Shown here: positions 2,528 through 59,584 of the stretch, one piece after another
How the letters are laid out: every line of letters starts with the position of its first letter
Numbering within the stretch: position 1 is the first letter of the stretch
NCBI RefSeq assembly: GCF_000018405.1
Contig: NC_009943.1
Coordinates: 385,255-449,254, forward strand
Direction of reading: 5' to 3'
DNA length: 64,000 nucleotides
Source of the DNA: Desulfosudis oleivorans Hxd3
GTDB taxonomy: Bacteria; Desulfobacterota; Desulfobacteria; Desulfobacterales; Desulfosudaceae
Translations under genes and position numbers: made by a program
The notes under the pieces: generated by a model
Told to the model about the DNA's origin: nothing
Databases searched by the model: none
The model's input: only the letters and a program-made list of their open reading frames with translations

Positions 2528-2557
2528 ATCGAAATCGGTATCGGTATCGAAATCGAA
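2528..2557 (+). repeat. ATCGNN hexamer array (family A), plus orientation
   Basis: Five in-register hexamers: ATCGAA, ATCGGT, ATCGGT, ATCGAA, ATCGAA. It forms an inverted pair with 2973-3008. Confidence 0.85.
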
Positions 2558-2972: not shown

Positions 2973-3008
2973 TTCGATCCCGATCCCGATAGCGATAGCG
3001 ATCCCGAT
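2973..3008 (-). repeat. ATCGNN hexamer array (family A), minus orientation
   Basis: Six hexamers, read on this strand as TTCGAT, CCCGAT, CCCGAT, AGCGAT, AGCGAT, CCCGAT, so ATCGNN units run on the minus strand. It is the partner of 2528-2557. Confidence 0.85.
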
Positions 3009-12099: not shown

Positions 12100-12129
12100 G
12101 TCGAAATCGCTATCGGGATCGAAATCGAA
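12100..12129 (+). repeat. ATCGNN hexamer array (family A), plus orientation, single
   Basis: Five hexamers: GTCGAA, ATCGCT, ATCGGG, ATCGAA, ATCGAA. Flanks GGGTTGTTT on the left and TTGTCTTTA on the right are the same as those of the array at 81-122, pointing to a common ancestor element. It occupies the gap between two convergent genes. Confidence 0.85.
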
Positions 12130-23451: not shown

Positions 23452-23530
23452 ATCGCTGTCGAAATCGAATTGCACCGGCGTAAATGGAATCGATGCCGAT
23501 GCCGATTTCGATAGCGATTTCGAGCCCGAT
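23452..23530. repeat. Inverted pair of ATCGNN hexamer arrays (family A)
   Basis: The left, plus-oriented array has three units (23452-23469: ATCGCT, GTCGAA, ATCGAA, then TTG). The right, minus-oriented array has seven units (23489-23530). The gap of 19 bp would be a hairpin loop. It lies 43 bp upstream of ahcY, within its probable 5' leader. Confidence 0.85.
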
Positions 23531-24929: not shown

Positions 24930-25076
24930 ATCGGTATCGGGATCGACATCGGTATCGAAATTGGGTGCCGGGCTTCTCATGCAGATTCATACCGGTAAGA
25001 AGGATGAGGGAAGCCAAAGGCCAGGCTGCATCCGCCGTCAATACAATTCGATTTCGATACCGATAGCGATTTGGAT
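24930..25076. repeat. Inverted pair of ATCGNN hexamer arrays (family A) with conserved outer flank
   Basis: Plus array 24930-24959 (ATCGGT, ATCGGG, ATCGAC, ATCGGT, ATCGAA) and minus array 25047-25076 (ending AGCGAT, TTGGAT) are separated by 87 bp of unique sequence. The outer right flank 25077-25124 is the inverted counterpart of 34-80, including TTTATCC, GGCAGGACAG, TTTTAATCAT and TCCAAAAACG. This indicates that the element extends about 50 bp past the array. Confidence 0.85.
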
Positions 25077-37792: not shown

Positions 37793-37858
37793 CTTGAATA
37801 TTATAAAACGACCAAAAATGCTTCGCCAAGAGAGGAATAAATACACAAGGCCATCCAA

Positions 37859-37894
37859 ATCGGGATCGCTATCGGGATCGGAATCGGAATCGAA
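37859..37894 (+). repeat. ATCGNN hexamer array (family A), left arm around the S23 gene
   Basis: Six hexamers (ATCGGG, ATCGCT, ATCGGG, ATCGGA, ATCGGA, ATCGAA), preceded by ATCCA as at 24925 and 59550. The array ends two bases before the ATG of the S23 gene, so it occupies the position of the ribosome binding site. Confidence 0.9.
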
Positions 37895-37896
37895 AT

Positions 37897-38328
37897 ATGG
37901 CACTGGGACACGAAAAACTGGACGTTTACCGTCTTGCTATCCGTTATGTCGCCTGGGTTTATGAAAATGCCGGCCACCTGAATGGGGTCCATCGGTCCGC
38001 GCGAGAGCAGTGGCTTCGCGCCAGTCAGTCGATACCGCTGAACATTGCCGAAGGAAACGGCAAAACAGCGGGGGCGGATCGAAGGCGGTACTTTGAAATC
38101 GCCCGTGGTTCGGCGCTGGAGTGCGCCGCAATTCAGGATGTTCTGGTGGTCGGAAGGGGATTGCAAGAAGAAGAGAGCCGGGAACGCAAACTTGAACTGG
38201 ATCGTATTGTCGCCATGCTCAGCCGTTTGGGTGGTAGAGGTTATTGCGTCGGTGAAGAGGCCGAACCCTACGGGCATGACGAAAACGATCCCGATCCCGA
38301 TAGCGATCCCGATGGCAACAGACCATAG
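37897..38328 (+). CDS. S23 family four-helix-bundle protein (23S rRNA intervening-sequence protein type)
   Basis: A 143-residue protein. EKLDVYRLAIRYVAWVYE opens the S23/IVP fold; QWLRASQSIPLNIAEGN near 36-52 is its hallmark; RRYFEIARGSALECAAIQDVLV near 62-83 follows. The family was found inside intervening sequences of 23S rRNA genes; free-standing members are common and of unknown function, and a related fold (Avd) serves diversity-generating retroelements. There is no rRNA or reverse transcriptase here. The gene is enclosed by an inverted pair of ATCGNN arrays, and its last dozen codons (DPDPDSDPDGN) are the right-hand array translated. No ribosome site other than the array itself is visible. 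Confidence 0.9.
   Translation: MALGHEKLDVYRLAIRYVAWVYENAGHLNGVHRSAREQWLRASQSIPLNIAEGNGKTAGADRRRYFEIARGSALECAAIQDVLVVGRGLQEEESRERKLELDRIVAMLSRLGGRGYCVGEEAEPYGHDENDPDPDSDPDGNRP
38284..38313 (-). repeat. ATCGNN hexamer array (family A), right arm, within the end of the S23 gene
   Basis: Five units read on the plus strand as AACGAT, CCCGAT, CCCGAT, AGCGAT, CCCGAT. They are inverted relative to 37859-37894 and in frame with the S23 gene, where each pair of codons gives Asp-Pro or Asp-Ser. Confidence 0.9.
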
Positions 38329-51885: not shown

Positions 51886-51963
51886 CTCGAAATCGAAATC
51901 GGGATCGCTATCGCAATCGATCATATTAATTCGTTCGATCCCGATCCCGATAGCGATTTGGAT
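51886..51963. repeat. Tight inverted pair of ATCGNN hexamer arrays (family A hairpin)
   Basis: Plus array 51886-51921 (six units) and minus array 51934-51963 (five units, ending AGCGAT, TTGGAT) with only a 12-bp AT-rich loop. Transcribed, it would fold into a stem of about 30 pairs directly before the ATG of the next gene at 51978. Confidence 0.9.
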
Positions 51964-58734: not shown

Positions 58735-58795
58735 ATCGAAATCGTTGTCGAGGTTGGAGATCGGAGTCCATTTCGATCCCGATAGCGATTTTGAT
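58735..58795. repeat. Inverted pair of ATCGNN hexamer arrays (family A), decayed
   Basis: Left units ATCGAA, ATCGTT, GTCGAG (58735-58752); right, inverted units TTCGAT, CCCGAT, AGCGAT, TTTGAT (58772-58795). The loop is 19 bp. Together with the preceding repeats it fills the 322-bp gap between ispH and plsY. Confidence 0.8.
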
Positions 58796-59554: not shown

Positions 59555-59584
59555 ATCGAAATCGCTATCGGGATCGGGGTCGAG
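59555..59584 (+). repeat. ATCGNN hexamer array (family A), plus orientation, single
   Basis: Five units (ATCGAA, ATCGCT, ATCGGG, ATCGGG, GTCGAG) preceded by TTTATCCA as in the element ends at 80 and 25077. No inverted partner nearby other than 58772-58795. Confidence 0.82.

Follow-up and report, generated by a model that had tools for sequence, protein, structure and literature searches.

We describe an S23 gene enclosed by inverted arrays of a six-nucleotide repeat in the chromosome of Desulfosudis oleivorans Hxd3. The locus lies in a stretch of 64,000 nucleotides (NC_009943.1, positions 385,255 to 449,254), which was analysed as a whole and is called the window; coordinates are counted from its first letter unless stated otherwise. 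The S23 gene and its inverted arrays almost certainly form one unit, and this unit probably belongs to a family of mobile, or once mobile, elements. The kind of element that we propose, a single Avd-like four-helix-bundle gene between inverted arrays whose unit length and sequence go with the S23 lineage, is likely to be widespread and is apparently undescribed. We observed the architecture itself, a fit between array period and S23 phylogeny, a link between this S23 type and genomes rich in arrays, purifying selection on the protein, and internally deleted copies at several sites of two congeneric genomes.

S23 genes and their flanking arrays

The left array (37859-37894, plus strand) consists of six ATCGNN units with GG, CT, GG, GA, GA and AA at the variable positions, and is adjoined on its outer side by the end motif ATCCAA (37853-37858, plus strand). 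The outer flank consensus of 58 arrays sampled from this genome, near TTTATCCAA, ends in the same motif. As the first-pass annotation of this DNA had stated, the S23 gene begins 2 bases downstream of the array, with an ATG at 37897. It forms a plus-strand open reading frame (ORF) of 143 aa (37897-38328). The right array (38284-38313, minus strand) has five inverted units and does lie within this ORF, where it makes up 10 of the last 14 codons rather than the last dozen that had been proposed; it is read in frame as an Asp-X tail and encodes most of the acidic tail of the protein. The protein matched PF05635 (E 5.6e-19; 68.8 bits, cut-off 33.8) and TIGR02436 (E 1.5e-17; 63.8 bits, cut-off 24). 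PF05635 was its sole Pfam match, and the gene fills the space between the arrays, with no Y1 transposase there. RNA folding predicted pairing with the right arm for 26 of the 36 bases of the left arm.

Close relatives of this gene are flanked in the same manner. The close set comprised the best 80 loci of a genome-contig scan with the window S23 (54-82% identity), many of them from metagenome bins, and spans Desulfobacterota, Verrucomicrobiota, Lentisphaerota, Planctomycetota, Acidobacteriota, Hydrogenedentota, Gammaproteobacteria and others. Requiring at least three TCGNNN units upstream and an inverted CGA run downstream, we found the upstream array at 70/79 loci, the downstream array at 69/78 and both at 61/77, compared with 19/1600 and 22/1600 (about 1%) in control segments of the same loci. 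Preferential flanking of S23 genes in relatives, which the first-pass annotation had proposed to check, is thus supported. Wrongly oriented runs were present at 14/79 and 12/78 loci and are partly extra arrays at some of them. The fixed part of the unit varied by lineage, being ATCGNN near the window gene, TCGGGG-like in one group, TCGTTG in Accumulibacter and Rifleibacterium, and GTGCTC or GTACTC in Pirellulaceae. The 3' array lay in the S23 frame at 59/70 loci, at a distance from the start codon that takes 17 values in that frame, and the S23 ORF read into it at 53/70.

The element kind is wider than the first-pass annotation had supposed, since other S23 lineages have arrays of their own unit. 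An order set of 80 same-order S23 loci was found by family alone, with near-full-length matches chosen from the listed places; here the S23 genes were accompanied by short tandem arrays, likewise inverted, of different units, mostly of 7 nt. We then combined the close set, the order set and the window (161 loci), with 304 control segments setting the 95% level for calling an array. An array was found on at least one side at 140 loci and on both sides at 94, and in 89 of these 94 the two sides had equal periods (47 of 6, 33 of 7, 5 of 8 and 4 of 9 nt). At period 7, upstream and downstream units had 5.4 of 7 positions in common when taken from one locus (33 cognate pairs) and 3.2 when taken from different loci. 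A further set of 41 loci consisted of 11 viral contigs and 30 loci from 19 genomes of other phyla, which had been reached via window-type S23 loci, so that the 30 include some of those same genes; here an array was present on either side at 36 loci and on both at 23, with equal period in 23/23, against 2/73 in the null. As a separate observation, the viral contigs L343 and L344 share an S23 element with AACGTTG arrays and a common right flank, and differ in their left flanks, which may be real or an assembly artefact.

Array period follows S23 phylogeny. In a tree of the 161 S23 proteins, all 75 period-6 rows fell inside one clade of 83 rows (support 99/96), most of which had been picked for similarity to the window S23. 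The other 8 rows of the clade comprised six without an array, one of period 7 and one of period 8. The independent part of this result is provided by L215 and L220, the only period-6 loci among the 80 order loci, both of which were placed inside the clade. Over the whole tree, array period changed 29 times, compared with a mean of 73.8 for shuffled labels.

At the genome level, we surveyed 395 genomes of the phylum, calling a genome array-rich if it had at least 10 overlapping array matches and scoring the window S23 type by profile A1 (E at most 1e-25). Eleven of the 395 genomes were array-rich and six carried the window S23 type; all six were among the array-rich ones (Fisher 9e-11), compared with 5/389 genomes without this S23 type.

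The S23 protein is under purifying selection, with dN/dS values of 0.05-0.20 in 12/12 pairwise comparisons within the window S23 type. Its structure model (mean predicted local distance difference test score 88) is a four-helix bundle that resembles the S23 structures 2rld_B (Z 18.4) and 2gsc_E (Z 16.7), the latter being the Xanthomonas campestris protein XCC0516. It also resembles the Avd chain of a diversity-generating retroelement (DGR) ribonucleoprotein (8ub7_C, Z 15.1). Fold alone was rejected as proof of kinship with Avd, as unrelated helical bundles such as 1x8z (Z 13.8) rank near the Avd hit 4dwl (Z 13.7). Homology between PF05635 and Avd is stated in the literature (PMC10053308). Avd is needed for DGR activity, and a complex of bRT with Avd is recruited to structured RNA (PMC12875486). 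The S23 family also appears in the CRISPR-association figure of the FLSHclust paper (PMC10910872).

Deleted S23 elements and orthologous sites

Gene-less relatives of the element were examined in a congeneric pair, G232 (Pelovirga terrestris, containing the S23 locus L037) and G432 (a Desulfuromonadales bin, containing L033). Both genomes have a full S23 element at the same place, with 85% identity over 3.36 kb and arrays of different length. Elsewhere, pieces of an S23 gene lie within an array pair of G432 (L346) and within the orthologous pair of G232 (L360), which keeps both ends of the gene. With arrays masked, S23 fragments were detected between inverted arrays in 9 of 19 scanned records and in 0 reversed controls; the 19 had been selected partly by similarity to L346, so that no rate can be derived from them. 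As L350 and L363 are the same stretch, the nine records correspond to 7 distinct sites with a deleted S23 gene: L346/L360, L361, L362/L385, two in L363, L366 and L381. The sites of G232 and G432 are short, lack an intact gene, have inverted ends and are internally deleted from the full element, as is expected of miniature inverted-repeat transposable elements (MITEs).

A deletion junction near codons 26 and 116 sits at a CTGGGTG direct repeat of the S23 gene. The same junction occurs at L346/L360 and L362/L385, which have unrelated flanks, and is also present in the copies of L363 and L381. This reflects either the spread of a single deleted form or repeated deletion at the direct repeat. Over 125 nt, the flanks of L381 match those of a third L363 pair at 94%, indicating that the deleted sites are not all independent.

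We also compared orthologous sites for presence and absence. The window S23 gene lies between a radical-SAM gene (PF04055) and a transketolase gene on the same strand, with no rRNA neighbours. In D. oleivorans FI88 (G446), the orthologous spacer (L238) measures 232 nt compared with 716 and has no S23 gene; it carries its own small inverted TCGTAA-like pair, so that a different array type occupies this position. Similarly, the G432 site orthologous to the G232 element L361 has no ATCG array and contains another palindromic repeat. Both differences may represent either gain or loss. S23 and arrays thus differ in presence at orthologous sites of relatives, a point that the first-pass annotation had left to be checked. 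A palindromic repeat around AATCGGGGGACATAATA (L361, L378) moves independently between orthologous sites of G232 and G432.

Such sites bear on an explanation that we consider improbable, in which the arrays are ordinary slippage-prone repeats that serve as a preferred landing site of an S23 gene cassette. It would accommodate the different array lengths at orthologous sites, the inverted pair in the S23-free FI88 spacer and the seven genomes, named below, with arrays and without the window S23 type. Against it, arrays stand inverted on both sides of S23 with an equal unit, their period follows the S23 tree, and array-rich genomes without the window S23 type are rare (the 5/389 of the phylum survey).

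Dispersed arrays and the case for mobility

A repeat scan of the window revealed further arrays. Two of four additional inverted pairs claimed by the first-pass annotation stand, namely 24930-24959 (plus strand, five units) with 25047-25070 (minus, four units), and 51892-51921 (plus, five units) with 51934-51957 (minus, four units), across a 12-nt loop. In the other two, the left arms at 23453-23470 and 58736-58753 (both plus, three units) are degenerate, with TCGNNN only, and face right arms at 23489-23518 (minus, five units) and 58772-58789 (minus, three units). The looser, wide pair of 2528-2557 (plus, five units) with 2973-3008 (minus, six units) was recovered, as were the single plus-strand arrays that had been placed near 81, 12100 and 59555, which map to 87-122 (six units), 12106-12129 (four units) and 59555-59578 (four units).

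The host genome, a single contig of 3,944,167 bases, contains 465 overlapping four-unit ATCGNN matches (240 forward and 225 reverse), whereas the reversed pattern gave 0 four-unit matches in the whole genome. We sampled the window and 39 stretches, each of 20 kb, distributed over the chromosome (844 kb in all, 21% of the genome) and obtained 58 arrays with at least three cores, 31 on the plus and 27 on the minus strand. The variable NN was GG, GT, CT or AA in 216 of 233 units. Of 10 cases of neighbouring arrays less than 600 bp apart, 9 ran plus-then-minus and none minus-then-plus, and paired arms matched at NN in 54/152 positions, compared with 31.1 +/- 4.6 after shuffling. This agreement, together with the 26/36 paired bases at the window locus, makes a stem enclosing the gene plausible, as in rRNA intervening sequences (IVSs). 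Forty of the 58 arrays were solitary and not pairs; among these, a degenerate partner lay within 220 nt on the inner side in 5 and on the outer side in 4. By crude gene calls, 46/58 arrays were outside ORFs, compared with 13% expected.

The host genome has two PF05635 genes. The second (3937642-3937860 of the chromosome, L032) is partial, covering family positions 33-105 only; it is flanked on both sides by GAATGAT heptamer arrays in inverted orientation, and no ATCG array accompanies it. Period-9 runs of type CTTCGTGTCCTTCGTG with inverted copies, for example in L266 near 8.9-9.2 kb, constitute a further array family of this genome. In addition, the arrays at window position 87, in L013 and in L296 are embedded in a longer repeat (CCAAAAACGGTTTTAATCATGGCAGGACAG ... 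CTGCTTATCCGTGTACTTTTCTTGG) that is alike on both array sides.

The dispersed arrays could also be read as binding sites and not as element copies, with S23 acting as an array-binding global regulator of its own expression. We regard this as unlikely, though better placed than the landing-site explanation. A single S23 gene of this type stands beside many dispersed arrays, most of them outside called ORFs, and purifying selection and vertical inheritance in congeners would suit a regulator. In Geobacter metallireducens, similar 7-8-mer sites that occur in pairs, on opposite strands, were attributed to an unidentified global regulator (PMC2700814); TAACTGA arrays have been regarded as possible regulator sites (PMC4679880). 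Binding sites need not, however, hold deleted S23 genes, as the seven sites listed above do, nor need close arrays run plus-then-minus in nine of ten cases.

Several findings weigh against the proposed kind of element. No array was found at 15/80 order-set loci, and the tree was built on few columns, with bootstraps that had not settled and a warning of joined long branches. In two congeneric pairs the full S23 gene occupies the same, orthologous position, so that it was vertically inherited there. The common deletion junction sits at a direct repeat, where it may have formed repeatedly. We found no fresh insertion, and no target-site duplication at the FI88 spacer, which has diverged, or at G432:C41, which holds the other repeat; both sites are too changed to serve as clean empty sites. 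Seven array genomes were without the window S23 type (G160, G188, G189, G296 and G403, and in the closer set G010 and G035); the profile search scored at most 11 candidates per genome and most of the seven are in many contigs, so that misses are possible, and S23 loss may be another reading of them. The window S23 type had no tblastn match in 72,556 plasmid and 50,697 phage records and was unconfirmed in viral contigs (A1 profile; 77 stretches tried).

The host genome itself also counts here. With arrays masked, no convincing S23 remnant was found beside the 56 other sampled arrays, the scan giving 1 short nucleotide match compared with 0 in reversed controls and 3 weak protein-level matches compared with 1. 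The first-pass annotation had taken gene-less copies for deletion derivatives; this is borne out by the 7 sites in the two congeneric genomes and not by the host genome, with its 56 arrays lacking a convincing remnant and its predominance of solitary ones.

Finally, in two genomes with several S23 copies, LH_M59 (three) and Tobar G41 (six), similarity extends beyond the arrays into the flanks, and these copies thus do not fix the element ends. They may have been moved by other machinery, their flanks being integron-like. Three S23 copies of one genome (L049, L057, L061) share a terminator-like hairpin upstream, and their downstream pieces resemble what we take to be an integron-type integrase end. 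Five copies of one Verrucomicrobia bin (L064, L076, L078, L079, L101) share about 90 nt upstream, presumably similar to attC-like ends; they are perhaps integron cassettes.

We nevertheless favour mobility, and propose ongoing or former spread of the elements within genomes. The S23 protein would recognise its cognate array, most likely as the arm stem in a transcript or in single-stranded DNA; binding to the cognate array stem is what we infer from the fold likeness to Avd and from the role of Avd. Dispersed pairs and solitary arrays would then be decayed or non-autonomous copies served in trans. The element itself carries no cutting or copying enzyme, and S23 would work together with one supplied in trans. 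Avd acts with RNA and a reverse transcriptase; following this analogy, our first guess is a reverse transcriptase, and our second a host nuclease acting on DNA hairpins. RNA-based spread with a reverse transcriptase in trans is a tentative proposal, which we rate somewhat below even.

Comparison with known systems

To our knowledge, S23 proteins were for decades known only as the puzzling ORF of rRNA IVSs. Like these, the window element has an S23 gene between stem-forming inverted repeats and a patchy distribution, and its terminal inverted repeats pair (26/36 bases). IVSs, however, reside within rRNA, from which RNase III excises them, whereas the window element does not lie inside a 16S or 23S rRNA gene but between radical-SAM and transketolase genes, and has hexamer arrays with hundreds of dispersed array relatives. 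That it is a 23S rRNA IVS moved out of rRNA, and a dead relic here, seems very improbable to us. The common gene family and the pairing ends agree with this origin, as does the Coxiella IVS, in which 2-3 tandem heptamers GACAGAT, varying in number by strain, precede S23 (PMC4990558). A dead relic would not be expected to keep its S23 gene under purifying selection, and the array matches in the genome number in the hundreds, with no rRNA neighbours at the gene.

The likeness to Avd of DGRs lies in the fold and in the stated family homology; no template or variable repeat was seen beside the window S23 gene, and reverse transcriptases were not searched for. With REP/RAYT systems (repetitive extragenic palindromes and their associated tyrosine transposases) and MITEs, the element shares a gene flanked by inverted repeats, many gene-less dispersed copies and deletion derivatives. 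It differs from them in that its only gene is S23, with no Y1 transposase, and in that its ends are short-unit arrays and not a fixed terminal repeat; target-site duplication was not seen.

Dispersed heptamer arrays have been described as GGGAATC in Xanthomonas, GGGGA(C/T)T in Nostoc and TAACTGA in Beggiatoaceae, alongside the paired sites of Geobacter. They are likewise short tandem arrays, often in convergent inverted pairs, 70 of which were counted for GGGAATC in Xcc and 75 in Xac (PMC4692102). Xcc also possesses an S23 gene, XCC0516. Unlike ours, they are linked to no gene in the available parts of these papers, and those of Xanthomonas and Nostoc are 'generally' not linked to mobile elements. 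For the TAACTGA arrays no mechanism was evident, and a repeat-binding protein was suggested as the mobile part (PMC4679880). In many prokaryotes, the commonest intergenic tandem repeats are reported to be arrays of 6-9 nt, mostly heptamers, for whose function there is 'no clear clue' (PMC6344855). In the open-licence literature we found no paper tying S23 genes to such dispersed arrays.

Our results suggest that S23 genes help spread short tandem repeats scattered through bacterial chromosomes. In the widest form of this idea, for and against which we see the balance as even, S23 lineages, which bring no transposase, would be the missing partners of 6-9-nt tandem arrays, heptamers above all, each recognising and spreading its own array, probably via RNA as with Avd; 23S rRNA IVSs would be the special case that landed in rRNA. 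If S23 proteins are the partners of these arrays, two puzzles become one testable system, in which each S23 has a predicted target sequence.

By this comparison the element would be of a new kind, since it lacks features that define its nearest counterparts, namely the rRNA site of IVSs and the Y1 transposase of REP/RAYT systems. Only if the IVS is taken broadly does the element become an IVS variant. If our reading is true, it represents a kind of mobile element that has tandem arrays as its ends and a non-enzymatic Avd-like protein as the product of its sole gene.
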